A stretch of DNA of 45,406 nt, from positions 1 to 45,406 of the forward strand of contig CAJQQR010000007.1 in the NCBI GenBank assembly GCA_905480545.1, in the 5' to 3' direction. Below are positions 13,688 to 21,442 of the stretch, piece by piece. The translations under genes were made by a program, and so were the position numbers. Under the pieces are notes generated by a model, which searched no databases, was not told where the DNA came from, and worked only from the letters and a program-made list of their open reading frames with translations. Source of the stretch: an uncultured Pirellulaceae bacterium (GTDB lineage: Bacteria > Planctomycetota > Planctomycetia > Pirellulales > Pirellulaceae). Positions within the stretch are counted from its first letter, which is position 1. Each line of letters opens with the position of its first letter.

Positions 13688-15301
13688 CTACAGCCCAATA
13701 TTCTTGGGCGGGAACTTTTTAAATGTCGCACCATGGGTTTTTAGTTTACCAGCGACGATTGCCAGCCAGGCATTTCGGCGATGCCCGACCGGCATTTGTT
13801 CTTTTGGATCGATGTATAAATTGAACAGCCAAGGCGCCAGACCGACGTTTTGAACGGTCGACATATCAATGTGTAGATGGGTTGTCTGCGGCAAGATAAC
13901 TTTGACATGCGCTTTGTATTCCTTCATTCTGCATGCCATTAACTCGCTGCCCCACCAAAAATAGACGGCTTCTCTTTTCGATTTTCCGTTGTCATCAATT
14001 AAGAATGAAGCCTGATCGATGAAGTCGTAGTATCGATCGTCCAGAAGTTTATCGGTCGACACGCCCGCCAGCTGCAGGGAGGTTCCGAACAGGTCCATCA
14101 GGTCGAAAAGCCCATCACTTTCTCGACCCGGCTGGATCATGCCTTTCCAATGTGCAATTCCGGGGACTCGCACACCTCCTTCAAAGGTGGTTCCTTTGGC
14201 GCCTCGAAACGGAGTGTGTCCCGCGTCAGGCCACCCATCCATTTGCGGACCATTATCAGATGTGAAAAAGATGAAAGTGTTTTCTAGAACACCGGCACTC
14301 TCGAGTGACTTAACAATTTCACCAACGTGCCGATCCACCTCTGCGACTGCTTCTTTATAGTAGTATTTCGCTGCACTCAATGATCCGAGATCCGGATTTG
14401 GGAAGTTGTCACAGTGAACCTTCATGAAGCAATGTTCGATAAAGAATGGCTTGTCGCCATCAGCCAATTCTTTGATTTTTTTGACGGTGAAATCGGTGAG
14501 TTCTTTGTCGGCTCTTCCCATATCTTCGATGGATTTTATCTGGCTAACTTTATTTGTTTGACCTCCCTTGAACCCATGAATCAGGTGGTCATCTGGTTTG
14601 ATCGCCTCGAAGGCTCGAAGACGGGCCGGATTGTTTACCAAGTCGGGAAAGCGTCGTGGGTCCTTGGACTGGGTGATTTCCTTTTGAGCAGAGTAGAAGC
14701 CATAGTATTCATCGAAACCGACATCATGAGGACGCATTCCTTCGGCTTCTCCGACGTGCCACTTGCCCGTTAGCAGGGTGTAATACCCTGCTCCACTGAG
14801 CAATTTTGCCAAGCTGATTTCGTCATTCCAAGGGTTCTTGGTGATCTTGTCTCCAGCAAGAATTGGACGGGTCAAGCCGGTTCGAATTGGGAGTCTGCCG
14901 GTCAGGATTGCCGAACGGGTGGGCGTGCAGGTTTGCTGCGCGTAGCAGGACGTCAGTCTTAGGCCTCCTCGGGCCAGTCGATCAATGTTTGGCGTGGCCG
15001 CTCCAATAGCCGCGCCACCGCCATAACATCCTGGATCGCCGTATCCCATATCATCAACGATAAGCCATAAAATGTTAGGTCTTTTGCCCGTCTTTGCTTT
15101 GAGGGCAGCGAGTTTTTGTTGGACAGCTCGGTCTTGATCAGGTCGCGGAATTGTTGGCTCACGATTTTCCGCCGCTCGAATCGAACGATCAAATGTCTGG
15201 GCGACCGCATTGTTGACCGACATGGACATTAGCAGCGTCAGGGTGGCAACGCCGAGTAGTTGGGTATGCGGAGCTAGAGTGCCTAAATTCCTAATATTCA
15301 T
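13688..15301 (-). CDS. Secreted sulfatase (formylglycine-dependent, arylsulfatase family)
   Basis: A 537-residue S1-type sulfatase from ATG 15301; an in-frame TTG four codons earlier is less likely. The signal peptide runs to about residue 34 (...NAVAQ). The catalytic domain shows metal-binding Asp83/Asp84 (WLIVDDMGYGD) and the C-T-P-T-R motif (125-129), whose Cys125 would be converted to formylglycine. It also shows 'LTGKWHVG' and the Ca-binding 'FTSDNGPQ'. It hydrolyses sulfate esters, probably on algal or other sulfated polysaccharides in the periplasm or outside; the substrate is not predictable here. It lies 81 bases downstream of a larger sulfatase on the same strand. No formylglycine-generating enzyme is in the window. 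Confidence 0.93.
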   Translation of the reverse strand: MNIRNLGTLAPHTQLLGVATLTLLMSMSVNNAVAQTFDRSIRAAENREPTIPRPDQDRAVQQKLAALKAKTGKRPNILWLIVDDMGYGDPGCYGGGAAIGAATPNIDRLARGGLRLTSCYAQQTCTPTRSAILTGRLPIRTGLTRPILAGDKITKNPWNDEISLAKLLSGAGYYTLLTGKWHVGEAEGMRPHDVGFDEYYGFYSAQKEITQSKDPRRFPDLVNNPARLRAFEAIKPDDHLIHGFKGGQTNKVSQIKSIEDMGRADKELTDFTVKKIKELADGDKPFFIEHCFMKVHCDNFPNPDLGSLSAAKYYYKEAVAEVDRHVGEIVKSLESAGVLENTFIFFTSDNGPQMDGWPDAGHTPFRGAKGTTFEGGVRVPGIAHWKGMIQPGRESDGLFDLMDLFGTSLQLAGVSTDKLLDDRYYDFIDQASFLIDDNGKSKREAVYFWWGSELMACRMKEYKAHVKVILPQTTHLHIDMSTVQNVGLAPWLFNLYIDPKEQMPVGHRRNAWLAIVAGKLKTHGATFKKFPPKNIGL

Positions 15302-15382
15302 TGAGCGAATCAACTTTCAAATGGACTTGAGAAGAGTGTTACTTTTATTGACGCAGATGTCGGCTCAAACCGAACTGGCTGT

Positions 15383-17758
15383 CTAGCGTGGCTTCAATTT
15401 GACGTTCAGTCGATGAATCGTCCCGTCAAACTCAAACGGTCGCCGCTCTGCATACTTGGATGAAACGGGTGACCCCAAATCGATTCCGACGTCAAACGTT
15501 TCAGTTGCGGTAAACGCCGCAGGGACAGTCCGTTTCAATTTCGCTTCGCCAACGTTCTCGCCGTCAACGAAAAGTTTGGCCGTTCCTGATTTTCCGGGTC
15601 CATTGATTGTAGTTTGGATTTCAATCTTACGCTTTCCAGCAGCCAGCGGTTTGTCGCTTCGTGCCTTATATTTCTCAATGATCATCATGTTGTATTCGTA
15701 CATGAGATGTCCTTGCTCTAGGTAAACCGTCAGTCCACCACTCGCTCCGCCCACCGCATAAAGAACACCATTGGCTTGGTCTTTTAGATCAACCTCAATT
15801 GTCACGTTGGTGCTCTGTCGGCCTACGCCTGGCGCGGCAAATTCAGGCATTCGTCGTGTGTTTTGACTGAAGTTCCAATTGGAGTAGGGAGTGGTGACTC
15901 GATCTTGAGGATAAAGCCGCAGCCAATTGCCCGCACCAATTGGGAAATCCTGGTTTTTTTTCGCCAACTCCAGAAACTCGTTTTTCAACTGGTTGAGTTT
16001 ATCCGGATGTGTCTTCGATAAATCATCGGCTTGAGAGAAATCGTCATTTAGGTTGTACAGTTCCCATTGGTCCGTCGCGGAATCCCAATTCTGAATACGA
16101 GAAATAGAGGCCGGCGTATTCCATGGGATAAATGGCCCAAACGCACATGCCATCCAGCCATCTTTGTAGATGGCGCGGCTTCCGTTGTTATCGAAAAATT
16201 GAATTTTCTTTTTAGTGGGAGTGGACGCATCATCGAAAGTGTACGCCAGACTCACGCCATCGATTGGTATCTGCTTGTTGCCGTGAACCACCGCCGGGTG
16301 GGGGATCTTTAGCAACTCATAGATAGTGGGTGCGATATCGATGACATGATGGAATTGATTCCGCATGCTCTTATCCGGCTTGATTTTCTTGGGCCACGAA
16401 ATAACCATCGGATTGCGTGTTCCACCGAAATAAGATCCCAGTAATTTTGTACCTTTAAATGGGGTGCTGCCTGCCCACGCCCAACCTGCATGATACATGT
16501 TGTCAGTCTTTGGAGACCCGAGCACCTGCAGGCCACCCATTTCATTCAGGGCTTTTAGTTGTTGGTCCACGGTGTTGGGAATGTTGTTTTGGGCTAACAA
16601 TTCGCTGATTGAGCCACGCTGTCCCTCTGAACTGGAACCATTATCACCAAATATATAGAGGACGATTGTGTTTTCTCGTAGGCCTCGTTTCTCAAGATGG
16701 TTGATAAGCCGACCTACCTGTGCATCGGTGTGTTCAACGAAACCAGCGTAGATTTCCATAAGTCTCGTCTGGAAAGCACGTTGGGTTTCCGGGATATTGT
16801 CCCATCCCTCAAGGGTTGTGTCGCGTTTGGTCAACTTGGTGCCCTTTGGGATGATTCCCATTTCAATTTGCCTCTTGTGAACGCGTTCCCGGTAGGCATC
16901 CCACCCCGTGTCAAACTTGCCCTTATATTTGTCGGCCCATTCAGGAAACACATGATGAGGACCATGAACCCCGCCGGGAGCCCAGTACATGAAAAATGGC
17001 TTGTCCGGCGAGAACGCCTGATGATCATCAAGCCATTTGCTGGCTTTGTCTGCCATGTCTACTGTAAAGTGGTACGTTGGGTCGTCTTCGGGAGGTTCGA
17101 TGTGATTGTAGTTCTCTGTCAACCTGGGTTCCCATTGAGAAGTTTCTCCCCCCAGAAAACCGTAAAAATATTCAAAACCATATCCATTAGGCCAGCGGTC
17201 TTTCGGGCCAATTGAGGTCGTCTCCGTCGCGGGAGTGTTGTGCCACTTTCCAAAAGCGGCTGTGTGATATCCGTACTCCTTGAGAACTGCGGGAATCGTA
17301 GCCGCGGTTTTTGGTATCACTCCCGTGTAGCCATCAAACGCGACAGCACGCTCAGCAATCGTGCCGGAGCCAACTCGAGTGTGATTCCGACCGGTCAAAA
17401 GTGCGGCTCGAGTAGGCGAGCAGATCGAGGTTGTGTGAAATGCATTGTATTTGATGCCTTGCCTGGCCAGCTTGCTTAGCGTAGGCGTGTGTACCTCACC
17501 GCCAAACGTGTCAGCGACACCGAAACCAACGTCATCGAGCAGAACGACCAGAACATTAGGAGCGTCTTTCGGGAGTCTCTCCGGGGGTTGGGGCCATTTC
17601 ATCGTCGAGTCTTGCAACCTCGGTCTGGCAATTCCCGCCATTTTCGTAGGTGGAAACGGCAATATGGAACCGTCCGCAGGAATGGACTGGGCCGCCAACA
17701 CCAAATAGGAGCCAAAATAGGTTGCTAAAAAGCAAGTCGCAAACGCACATCGGATCAT
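15383..17758 (-). CDS. Secreted large arylsulfatase with C-terminal beta-rich domain
   Basis: A 791-residue sulfatase. ATG 17758 opens directly into a signal peptide (CAFATCFLATYFGSYLVLAA), so it is preferred over an in-frame GTG 22 codons upstream. Metal ligands Asp75/Asp76 (VLLDDVGFG), the C-S-P-T-R formylglycine motif at Cys113, 'FGKWHNTP' and 'IFGDNGSS' are all present. The last about 160 residues are beta-rich ('GLTVYLEQGHLMYEYN', 'GKRKIEIQTTINGPG'), like the C-terminal domain of large planctomycete arylsulfatases. It is probably co-transcribed with the smaller sulfatase that follows. The two enzymes share only the family core, so they are not a recent duplication. Confidence 0.93.
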   Translation of the reverse strand: MIRCAFATCFLATYFGSYLVLAAQSIPADGSILPFPPTKMAGIARPRLQDSTMKWPQPPERLPKDAPNVLVVLLDDVGFGVADTFGGEVHTPTLSKLARQGIKYNAFHTTSICSPTRAALLTGRNHTRVGSGTIAERAVAFDGYTGVIPKTAATIPAVLKEYGYHTAAFGKWHNTPATETTSIGPKDRWPNGYGFEYFYGFLGGETSQWEPRLTENYNHIEPPEDDPTYHFTVDMADKASKWLDDHQAFSPDKPFFMYWAPGGVHGPHHVFPEWADKYKGKFDTGWDAYRERVHKRQIEMGIIPKGTKLTKRDTTLEGWDNIPETQRAFQTRLMEIYAGFVEHTDAQVGRLINHLEKRGLRENTIVLYIFGDNGSSSEGQRGSISELLAQNNIPNTVDQQLKALNEMGGLQVLGSPKTDNMYHAGWAWAGSTPFKGTKLLGSYFGGTRNPMVISWPKKIKPDKSMRNQFHHVIDIAPTIYELLKIPHPAVVHGNKQIPIDGVSLAYTFDDASTPTKKKIQFFDNNGSRAIYKDGWMACAFGPFIPWNTPASISRIQNWDSATDQWELYNLNDDFSQADDLSKTHPDKLNQLKNEFLELAKKNQDFPIGAGNWLRLYPQDRVTTPYSNWNFSQNTRRMPEFAAPGVGRQSTNVTIEVDLKDQANGVLYAVGGASGGLTVYLEQGHLMYEYNMMIIEKYKARSDKPLAAGKRKIEIQTTINGPGKSGTAKLFVDGENVGEAKLKRTVPAAFTATETFDVGIDLGSPVSSKYAERRPFEFDGTIHRLNVKLKPR

Positions 17759-18543
17759 AGAGCTAAAACCTTGAATAACAGATAAAGAATATCGCCGTCT
17801 GTGCGTGCGGGGAAACAGTCGCACCCTTCAAATTCTTCGCGACCATCAAGTGGCGTTTTGAAAAAACGCAACGCCTTTTCTCAACGTGGCAGGCCGGTAA
17901 ATCAACATGACGAAAGCACTTTTAGACTAACCGAGAGACTGATCTCAGGAAAGAGTTTACGCGAAATAGGTAGAAATTCAGCCTCCAAGGATTTGGTTGA
18001 CGCGCGAATCGAGCGTGAAAGGTTCACGTGAGACAAGTCGACTTCTTTGTCTTTCATTCTCGAATTGACGATAGGCTGATCGTTGTGCTTGACCGCTATA
18101 ACGTCATTCAAACCTGCTAACGCTTTCTTTTTTTCTCGCAGGATTCATTCAATTCAACCCGTTTCCGAATCAATGATCATGGATGGAAAGACAGGTTGGG
18201 ATTGTCTTGAAAGTCTTATGTCTCCATGGATTTGCAGCTGGTTTGCCGCGGCCATAGATTCAGGTTTTGGTTTTTCCGAGTCTTTTCCATAGTGTTCAAA
18301 CATTTACATTCCGGTGTTGGCGATTCTCTAGTTGGAAAAATCTGCACATGGAGTCATTGAATTGGCCAGAAATTCGGGTATTCATTTTTTTTTATATGGG
18401 ATAAAACAAGCTTGTTGACCAGCAGATCGGAACATGACGGATCGAATTTGTGCTTGATCAACCAGCTTTTTAGTGGCGGAAAGACGCTTCGCAAAAAGCA
18501 ACCATTTCGTAAAATCACGATTTCACAATCCAGGAGGGAAGAA
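17759..18543. other. Long divergent intergenic region, nothing recognised
   Basis: About 785 bases between the divergent sulfatase and the SMC-like gene. I see no gene with recognisable motifs, no RNA cloverleaf and no strong hairpin-T tract. Short open frames (for example 17801-18031) have biased, low-information composition. The last bases hold the AGGAGG ribosome-binding site at 18532-18537 that fixes the start of the next gene. Confidence 0.5.
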
Positions 18544-21339
18544 GTGAAAATTCGTCGCCTTTCCAATAACCTAGTTAGTGCCAACGATTCGCTCGAATCA
18601 ATTTCTCTGTCGCCGAAAATGCAGCTGATTTTTGGCCCGATTGATGCCGACACCACAAACGTTCGTGATTCAATCCGATGGCTGTTTTACGGAGACGACG
18701 CATCGGGAATTTCGTCCAAGTTCTTGACCACCGACATGGAGGTGGAATTTCCGAAGGGGCCTGCCATGGTCTCTCGAACGACCGAGCATTTAGAAGACTT
18801 TGATTCGGAGATGCGACGTGTTTTTGACCGAACGCTGCTGGAAATAGATCCATTTACCTACGAGAGTTTCTACGACGTAAATTTTGGTCAAGGTTCGGTT
18901 GGTGGTTATGAGCTTTGCCAGTTGCTGCGCAAACGATTTAATGTCCCGTTCGGTGATCATAGCGGTAGCGAATCAGATTTATTTGATGAACACCGAGTTC
19001 AAACGTTGCGACATGAATTGTCCGGAGTTGATTTTCAGGTACACGACCTATCAAACGATCGCAACCTGTTGCGTCGTGAAGTTGAGACGCTTGAAAAGAA
19101 AAATGCTCAGCCTCGGGAATTCTTGCTTTCACAGAAGCACTCGCTTGAGAAGCGTATTGAAGGATTGCGAATTAAGTTGGAGCGTTTGCGGGTTCGCGCA
19201 TTTGATGTCGAAAAGGAGATTGATCAGCTCATAGCGTCTCGTAGTTCGGCAAACCAAGTTGCGCCCATCGCCGTCCAGAAAAATAATTCGGTTACCGCGA
19301 GTGATTTAGAATCCCTGGACCTTCAGATCAATCGTTGGAAAACCGTCCAGGCCGACATTAATACTCGGATTACCGATCTCAAGAGCGACCTTTCATCGAC
19401 ACGAATCAGTGAATTTGACGGGGCGTTTGATGAAGTTAGGGCATTATTACGATGTAGTGAAGAAAAAATTTCGGACCTCGATACAAATGTTGATGCGAGT
19501 AGCCGACAACACGACGAATTTCATTCATTGCAGGTTGTGCATCATCAGATTTGCGATGCATTGTCGGAAATCCAATCGCAATGGCGCCAGCGATTGATTT
19601 CCACCGAATTGCGTGATTTACATCGCTGCACTGAAGAGCTGAACGGATATCTGCAGAGGTTGAATGAGAAACGATTTCACTCCAACCGTTCGACGTTGGC
19701 GACGGAAGATTCCGCTTCGACTAAGTATTGCGAATGCAGCAGTCATGATATTTCATTTCTTCCAGGTAATTCGCACCTTATTGAGCAAATGAACGCACAA
19801 TTGGATGAATTGATCAATGAAATTGAAATGACTCAGCGTTTGTTGAATTCTGCGCTTTCAGAGTATCATTCGATCGATGAAAAGGCTGATCAAAATTTGC
19901 TCGTGCAGATTACGGAATCAAAATCGTTGTTGGAGGCGAAGAATGTTGAGCTCCGACGATTGCAAACCGAAAAGCAACAGTTAGAGCAGTCTTTGGCCTT
20001 GGAATTGGCTAAGCCTCGGCAGCGTGTGAGTCGCTGTTTGCAATTCGCGTCCAATTTCGTGAGCGAGTTGACCAACGGCGTTTTGTCGAGCCTGTATTTG
20101 TCGGATGAAGGCACAGACATTGTGTTGGTAGACGAGAACCGCCAAAAGATCCATTACAATGATTCGGACTTAACCACTCGAAACAAGGTTCGAATCGCGA
20201 TTTCATTGGCTGCCTGTTCTTTGCTTACGGAAAGCGATTATCGAATGCCACTGGTTTTAGAGGATGCGTTTGTCGGATTTGGTGAAACCGAAGTTGATTT
20301 GGTCATGCGTCTGTTTAAGCGATTCACCAAAACCACAAGCCAGATTGTTCTGTTGACCAACAATCGGTTTATTCGCGATTACTCGGTGGAACAAGATATC
20401 CCGTGTTTGGATTTGCCGGATAAGTATTCGGGTGATGCGGTGCCGACCAGGCCCCGTGGAAATGAGCTATTGCCTAACACTCGCTACTCCGTTGAATCCA
20501 GGTTAGAAGATGTGAATCGAAGTCTCGACTTTGCGGCAATGGACCAAAATGGAACGGAGCTTGTGTGGCAGGAGGATGTTACTGGAAAGATCCGTGTCGC
20601 AGCGGAATTGGATCATCGAGCGAATCGAATCGGATCAGAATCCAGCGATGCAGAGACAGAGAGTTATCGAGCGAATATTTTAAAGGCGACTCGAAATAGT
20701 TCTCGCTCCAACAAAAAACGTAATTACCAACCGCTTTCACAAAGTGGGACCCCCAAGGACACCGCAAGGGAGTTTGACTCGGAAAATGAAAATATAATGC
20801 ATCAGGCTAGCGATTCCGGTCGGAACGAACGGTCAAATGAGATGAGTCGTGAACCATCACCTGTTCGAAGTCGCCGAAGTTCAGCGGTAACCCAAACTTC
20901 ACGGTTTTATTTGGAGCTGAACGACAATGTGGAAGCTGCCCCAACGATTGGTCCCAAAACAGCTGAACATCTTGAGGAAATAGGAATCATCACGGTTTCA
21001 GAACTGGTTGAAACGGATCCGGGATGGATCGCCAACGAACTCTCAAACAAGCGGATCAAGGAAGCAAACGTTGAGCAGTGGCAGTATCAAGCGATGCTTG
21101 TTTGCCAAGTGCCGAATTTGCGAGGCCACGATTCCCAGATTCTGGTCGCGTGTGGGATCCTTGATGCTGAGCAATTGGCGGACATGGATCCGGCCGTTCT
21201 TTTTGGAATTGTTGGTCCGTTTTCCAAGACGAAGGAAGGCCAAAAGTGGTTGCGCGGCGCAAAGGTTCCTGATCTCGCAGAAGTGATGGACTGGGTCAGT
21301 TGGGCTCAAGAGATGCGTCCATTGGATCAGGCCGCATAA
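18544..21339 (+). CDS. YhaN/SMC-like coiled-coil protein with degenerate P-loop and C-terminal DUF4332-like domain
   Basis: A 931-residue protein starting at GTG 18544. AGGAGG sits 6 bases upstream, and the protein then opens like YhaN/RecN ATPases (VKIRRL). The expected Walker A (GPNEAGKTT) appears as GPIDADTT (31-38): the Gly and the catalytic Lys are lost. Residues about 150-490 are coiled coil. The C-terminal half of the ATPase head keeps a Walker-B-like PLVLEDAF (569-576), but the ABC signature region reads DLTTRNK (542-548). 'IVLLTNNRF' follows. After a polar linker (about 680-815), residues about 820-931 form a helix-hairpin-helix-like DUF4332-type domain ('AAPTIGPKTAEHLEEIGI'). It likely binds DNA or another partner without normal ATP hydrolysis. 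No nuclease partner is adjacent. Function is unknown. Confidence 0.88.
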   Translation: MKIRRLSNNLVSANDSLESISLSPKMQLIFGPIDADTTNVRDSIRWLFYGDDASGISSKFLTTDMEVEFPKGPAMVSRTTEHLEDFDSEMRRVFDRTLLEIDPFTYESFYDVNFGQGSVGGYELCQLLRKRFNVPFGDHSGSESDLFDEHRVQTLRHELSGVDFQVHDLSNDRNLLRREVETLEKKNAQPREFLLSQKHSLEKRIEGLRIKLERLRVRAFDVEKEIDQLIASRSSANQVAPIAVQKNNSVTASDLESLDLQINRWKTVQADINTRITDLKSDLSSTRISEFDGAFDEVRALLRCSEEKISDLDTNVDASSRQHDEFHSLQVVHHQICDALSEIQSQWRQRLISTELRDLHRCTEELNGYLQRLNEKRFHSNRSTLATEDSASTKYCECSSHDISFLPGNSHLIEQMNAQLDELINEIEMTQRLLNSALSEYHSIDEKADQNLLVQITESKSLLEAKNVELRRLQTEKQQLEQSLALELAKPRQRVSRCLQFASNFVSELTNGVLSSLYLSDEGTDIVLVDENRQKIHYNDSDLTTRNKVRIAISLAACSLLTESDYRMPLVLEDAFVGFGETEVDLVMRLFKRFTKTTSQIVLLTNNRFIRDYSVEQDIPCLDLPDKYSGDAVPTRPRGNELLPNTRYSVESRLEDVNRSLDFAAMDQNGTELVWQEDVTGKIRVAAELDHRANRIGSESSDAETESYRANILKATRNSSRSNKKRNYQPLSQSGTPKDTAREFDSENENIMHQASDSGRNERSNEMSREPSPVRSRRSSAVTQTSRFYLELNDNVEAAPTIGPKTAEHLEEIGIITVSELVETDPGWIANELSNKRIKEANVEQWQYQAMLVCQVPNLRGHDSQILVACGILDAEQLADMDPAVLFGIVGPFSKTKEGQKWLRGAKVPDLAEVMDWVSWAQEMRPLDQAA

Positions 21340-21409: not shown

Positions 21410-21442
<33 letters not shown>

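Follow-up and report, generated by a model that had tools for sequence, protein, structure and literature searches.

The window analysed here, a stretch of 45,406 nucleotides from an uncultured Pirellulaceae bacterium, contains at positions 18544 to 21339 a gene for a protein with a DUF4332 tail, which is predicted to have a Rad50/YhaN-type fold and in which every motif of the ATP site is lost. We give about an even chance to the reading that this protein works as an ATP-independent coiled-coil scaffold, probably on DNA. The new element is the retention of the predicted head fold with a dead site, and the many losses of this site within one family. The gene and its parts are as follows; pLDDT is the predicted local distance difference test score of the structure model.

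18532..18537, + strand: ribosome-binding site AGGAGG, 6 nucleotides ahead of the GTG start
18544..21339, + strand: gene of the 931-residue ATP-dead Rad50/YhaN-like protein, GTG start, start residue shared with the homologues P0003 and P0004
18544..18933, + strand: Rad50-like head, N-terminal half, residues 1-130 (model blocks with pLDDT 75-96; fold match)
18634..18657, + strand: ruined Walker A, with GPIDADTT at residues 31-38; strand-loop-helix persists in the model
18988..20010, + strand: coiled-coil arms, residues 149-489 (predicted model)
19729..19746, + strand: CxCxxH, residues 396-401, at the predicted arm break; possible metal site, with the pattern in 38 other members of the family
20011..20433, + strand: C-terminal head half, residues 490-630 (model blocks 501-620 with pLDDT 93-97; fold match)
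20164..20187, + strand: ruined ATP-binding cassette (ABC) signature SDLTTRNK, residues 541-548 (sequence)
20251..20271, + strand: altered Walker B LVLEDAF, residues 570-576, with Glu in place of the first Asp (sequence)
20350..20367, + strand: position of the switch His, LLTNNR, residues 603-608, His changed to Asn (sequence)
20434..20898, + strand: linker, residues 631-785, mostly of low confidence (predicted model)
20899..21336, + strand: DUF4332 tail, residues 786-931 (Pfam PF14229, E 9e-17; blocks 791-920 with pLDDT 95-98)
20938-20973, + strand: helix-hairpin-helix-like APTIGPKTAEHL within the DUF4332 tail (sequence)

An earlier note on this DNA had described a strong AGGAGG/GTG start and an intact frame, and both were found: the open reading frame from the GTG at 18544 to 21339 is free of internal stops. 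The positions of Walker A, signature, Walker B and switch histidine were then read in the sequence. Walker A is indeed destroyed, as Gly31 and Thr38 are retained in GPIDADTT while the second glycine is changed to Asp36 and the lysine to Thr37, and the position of the LSxG signature is occupied by SDLT (residues 541-544). The statement that Walker B is kept was too generous, because only Asp574 stays in LVLED and the metal-binding aspartate is replaced by Glu573. The switch histidine is changed to Asn607. The head halves and the coil of a Rad50/YhaN-type ATPase are present in the predicted model, and all four motifs are missing. An intact P-loop elsewhere in the protein was sought by pattern; neither GK[ST] nor G-x4-GK occurs in the sequence of the window protein, of P0003 and P0004 or of the more distant relative L122. 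Pfam gave no AAA family at E values up to 1 in the window protein, AAA_27 (PF13514) included. The window protein matched no defence-system model, whereas many ATPase models were matched by P0008 and by the tail-less YhaN-like protein described below. A plasmid search was likewise without a match.

A structure prediction from the single sequence reached a mean pLDDT of 40 and was discarded. The head model used here resembles Rad50/SbcC (3.2-3.6 Å across about 260 residues; fold search with residues 1-631), and together with the predicted coil it bears out the head-coil-head architecture of the YhaN type which had been proposed. The coil itself matched NF045487, a model of archaea-specific SMC-related proteins, weakly (E 7.5e-4; 18 bits, with the cut-off at 300). 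An arm with CxCxxH is present in 39 of the 134 family members defined below (11 of 25 motif-complete and 9 of 39 dead ones), compared to 0.15% in shuffled arms. It may be part of a metal-held arm or elbow, unlike the zinc hook of Rad50.

The two closest homologues, P0003 (982 residues, 80% identical) and P0004 (1038 residues, 74%), carry the identical GPIDADTT, so that the change from lysine to threonine, which the earlier note had proposed to check in orthologues, is conserved in both. P0004 deviates directly ahead of LTTRNK, with SAN in place of DSD. Identity to P0003 and P0004 amounts to 97% and 93% over residues 1-60, 94% and 88% in the DUF4332 tail, 81% and 73% in the coiled coil and 70% and 51% in the linker. 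The dead head therefore ranks among the best conserved parts of the window protein, and the dead site is constrained in the window's clade. In a relative of the same genus with 27% identity (L031/L122) the ATP site is ruined in a different way. On the family tree, a single starred clade unites the window protein with P0003, P0004 and L122.

The tail, which the earlier note had called DUF4332-type, matched PF14229 over residues 801-923 with 61.8 bits, compared to a curated cut-off of 23.2. Pfam HHH_5 matched the tail with an E value of 0.005, which is under its cut-off. Within the tail lies APTIGPKTAEHL, which we take to be similar to helix-hairpin-helix DNA-binding hairpins. Across the family the DUF4332 tail is the best conserved part, and the working end of the protein is likely this helix-hairpin-helix tail. 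Two DUF4332 copies are present in 122 of 134 rows and one in the window's clade; most relatives have the additional first copy, preceding the last one, at the position of the linker. The 100 residues preceding the tail have a median net charge of +8 in the family. DNA binding by the tail is suggested by its sequence, and charge gives no clear support to it. In the accessible parts of the open-access literature no description of DUF4332 function was found, and the domain appears there merely as a gene label. Its distribution is patchy (11 of 57 genomes in a sample of the order and 29 of 79 in a sample of the class).

DUF4332 tails also occur apart from the head. P0032, encoded in the window's genome (L050:9315-10913, contig 207), is a protein of 533 residues with a zinc-dependent phospholipase C domain and a tail that is 42% identical to that of the window protein. 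Beside L050, eleven further tail-only frames without a head match were detected. The third DUF4332 protein of the genome (L232; contig 24, 23451-23810), a frame of 208 residues, gave the strongest Pfam match among these three.

Of 100 genomes searched in the window's family, 82 contain the protein or its tail. From these genomes, from contigs of named genomes and from a protein search, 134 full-length members were collected after removal of 18 near-copies, of 12 + 2 tail-only frames without a head match and of 10 rows lacking the N-terminal part (nine at a contig end, and L130 with a broken frame). A homologue search based on the alignment added 11 remote proteins, ten of which have AAA_27. 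The window protein belongs to this DUF4332-tailed planctomycete family related to the structural maintenance of chromosomes (SMC) proteins, with head-coil-head and tail in one chain and a place in the one tree. The Gly-Lys of Walker A is kept in 95 of 134 members and missing in 39, including genomes from many further genera and that of the isolate Botrimarina hoheduenensis (L181); the frame of L100 also has no Gly-Lys at the P-loop position. Of the 134 members, 36 keep the signature, 64 keep Walker B and 33 keep the switch histidine, and 33 of 134 keep none of Walker A, signature and Walker B. The signature is absent in all 39 members without Gly-Lys; because it never outlasts the P-loop, it presumably was lost first. 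A P-loop without signature occurs in 59 of 134. This snapshot suggests that hydrolysis was lost first and nucleotide binding later.

The family tree was calculated from the C-terminal head and the tail with the motif columns removed, and its support values stem from the Shimodaira-Hasegawa-like approximate likelihood ratio test (SH-aLRT). The state of the P-loop changes 13 times on this tree, also when only losses are counted, 12 times after collapsing forks with less than 80% support and six times on starred forks alone. With a stricter Walker A (GK followed by S or T), 90 of 134 members keep the motif and 15 changes are counted. Six is the safe figure because several dead rows sit on long branches, and P-loop loss probably happened at least six times across the family. 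The ruined sites vary between the clades, and many dead members do not even have Gly31 and Thr38. Motif-complete members, among them records of Gimesia, Fuerstiella and Planctomicrobium, already possess the DUF4332 tail, usually in two copies. The tail predates the loss of the ATP site, and the idea that it was added to a dead protein had to be abandoned.

Directly upstream of most motif-complete members a YhaO/SbcD-like gene is located, which is related to one in the window's own genome. A YhaO-like query had no match in the window, in agreement with the earlier observation that no nuclease partner is nearby, nor did the YhaO query (blastp) match in 19 loci of the window's family (L031-L049). 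For the partner count, four of 71 loci from named genomes were omitted (less than 1400 bases upstream and no partner), leaving 67; L062-L110 are outside this count. The partner was found in 19 of the 67 loci, and 18 of these 19 have retained all of Walker A, the signature and Walker B, the exception being L161 without signature. Two of the 48 loci in which it was not found keep the three core motifs (L164 and L166). A second set of 17 loci overlaps the first (L248 corresponds to L199, and L244 to the contig of P0020). All 14 loci from another family of the class keep the three motifs, with the partner found in 12. In the three loci from a further family within the window's order the P-loop is lost throughout, and no partner was found. 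Because the state of the partner changes merely three times on the tree, the link between partner and loss of the ATPase is suggestive and not causal. The missing partner of the window gene is likely explained by the upstream YhaO-like gene in the relatives of another family. No neighbour was common to more than six of the first 20 loci, antisense frames of the gene itself excepted, and over 19 + 80 loci and the window shared neighbours other than the YhaO-like gene occurred in 11 loci or fewer.

Judged by eye, the upstream YhaO-like partners (e.g. of L124, L134, L168 and L178) look nuclease-dead; the histidine of DxH is present in none of 18 rows with this region, and the aspartate of GD is missing in 18 of 19. 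Pfam Metallophos was not found in the partners of L124 and L168.

According to the mechanism that we propose, the protein probably descends from a DUF4332-tailed ATPase that formed a two-gene pair with a YhaO/SbcD-like protein, and the ATPase cycle would have been given up repeatedly after the partners were separated in the window's family. Head halves and coil would together make up a fixed rod or dimer that ATP does not open. With its helix-hairpin-helix tail, carried on a flexible linker, the protein would grip DNA or another protein bound to DNA, and would tether its target instead of moving it. Nothing in the analysis speaks for the sensor or cofactor-binding roles raised in the earlier note. 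That this family of Rad50/SMC-type proteins as a whole is converting, by many separate losses, to ATP-independent scaffolds selected for rod and helix-hairpin-helix DUF4332 tail instead of the ATPase is given slightly less than an even chance.

The same genome also encodes a tail-less YhaN-like protein (L111:1495-4965), which has all four motifs (GRNEAGKT, LSRG, LVLDD and TCH), matches AAA_27 and adjoins a Metallophos gene (L111:5070-6290). A match to it was detected in 58 of 60 genomes of the family, some perhaps being paralogues, and 27 of 30 tail-less YhaN loci of the family have a canonical P-loop; the other three comprise two frames with a stop and one unresolved case. The loss of the P-loop therefore belongs to the DUF4332-tailed branch and does not characterise the tail-less YhaN-like genes that were read. 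Judged by eye, the phosphoesterase motifs are eroding also in the YhaO-like genes beside tail-less YhaN (L202-L231), which keep DxH in 16 of 29 and GD in 20 of 29 cases, and GNH or GHxH was seen at the later blocks in no row. The window protein might be the dead partner of this live ATPase or of another SMC-type ATPase, acting as a non-hydrolysing half or brake. There are ABC-type ATPases elsewhere in which one of the sites is dead, and a motif-intact candidate beside a Metallophos gene exists in the genome and almost throughout the family. However, the two genes lie on different contigs, and the ruined sites vary by clade, whereas a fixed dead half might lose its site once. Co-occurrence with YhaN would be little informative because YhaN is so general in the family. 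Such a partnership is considered rather unlikely.

It is quite unlikely that the gene is on its way out under relaxed selection, its heads having lost their use together with a partner. The heads of the dead members are poorly conserved (median identity 18-19%) and the loss recurs. However, the ratio of nonsynonymous to synonymous substitutions (dN/dS), calculated for pairs of other family members without P0003 and P0004, ranges over the whole gene from 0.105 to 0.202 in the dead pairs (five of seven pairs unsaturated; three of the five from two clades) and resembles that of the P-loop-bearing pairs (0.107-0.193 in five of six, two of these pairs being without signature). When only residues 1-110 are considered, the values of these five dead pairs are 0.08, 0.10, 0.13, 0.17 and 0.50. 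The last belongs to L132/L138, and this clade may therefore be relaxing in that part; the other four do not share this. Furthermore, no internal stop occurs among the matches listed from the 100 genomes, and the good conservation of the dead head in the window protein also speaks against decay.

Binding of ATP or another nucleotide through the changed, non-canonical site is held to be very unlikely. Gly31 and Thr38 stay and the strand-loop-helix is predicted to persist, but the lysine, signature, Walker B aspartate and switch histidine are all changed, and many other dead members lack even the two retained residues. An assembly or start-site artefact, conceivable in a genome fragmented into 300 contigs, is practically negligible and already refuted by the two homologues with the same motif on other contigs and by the absence of Gly-Lys in other genera and the Botrimarina isolate.

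Several points weigh against an ATP-independent scaffold on DNA, residual nucleotide binding being one of them. The alignment behind the head model is rich in motif-complete ATPases, which favours a Rad50-type fold. Compared with solved structures the tail gave a weak sequence match only (DNA polymerase IV, E 0.38). The median net charge of the tail is 0. For the linker the net charge amounts to 0 (window protein), +4 (both P0003 and P0004) and -19 (L122). In addition, the family tree was built quickly and has SH-aLRT values as its sole support, the motifs are retained at four loci where no partner was found (L164, L166, L249 and L251), and the few partner changes and the value of L132/L138 mentioned above belong here as well.

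Outside the gene, a TGAT tandem repeat of six copies was observed just 3' of it (21414-21437). Upstream, on the opposite strand, two consecutive genes (13688-17824) look sulfatase-like by their translation.

The action of SMC and Rad50 proteins is generally attributed to heads that open and close under the control of ATP. If the reading as a scaffold is true, the family would be a natural experiment separating the roles that SMC proteins play by ATP from those they play by shape. Live and dead natural variants, present in at least one cultured isolate and in uncultured planctomycetes, could be compared because the engine was repeatedly lost while gene, coil and tail are under purifying selection. 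The family also offers a setting for testing the function of DUF4332. In the open-access literature no account of a DUF4332-tailed SMC-like family was found, and its accessible parts yielded nothing pertinent on SMC pseudo-ATPases or a lost Walker A in SMC proteins.

YhaN/YhaO is the Rad50/Mre11-like pair of Firmicutes, its ATPase belonging to AAA_27. The window protein resembles YhaN in its head-coil-head order, and relatives in another planctomycete family lie directly behind a YhaO-like gene; it differs from this pair by the lack of ATP-site motifs, partner gene and AAA_27 match and by its extra DUF4332 tail. To Rad50/SbcC of the Mre11-Rad50 complex it is similar in the predicted head fold. 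Rad50 needs ATP, and its zinc hook is a CxxC at the apex, whereas the window protein has CxCxxH at the predicted arm break. As lineage-specific relatives of SMC proteins, the archaea-specific ClsN/Sph proteins are also comparable. These possess Walker A and B, and in the survey that describes them 13 of 111 candidates were discarded due to high divergence or missing motifs (PMC9389158). The SMC-related DMS3 of Arabidopsis is similar in that its conformational change results from peptide binding and not from ATP hydrolysis; DMS3 has no ABC head and keeps the SMC hinge (PMC6718625), whereas in the window protein the head fold is predicted to persist with a dead site.
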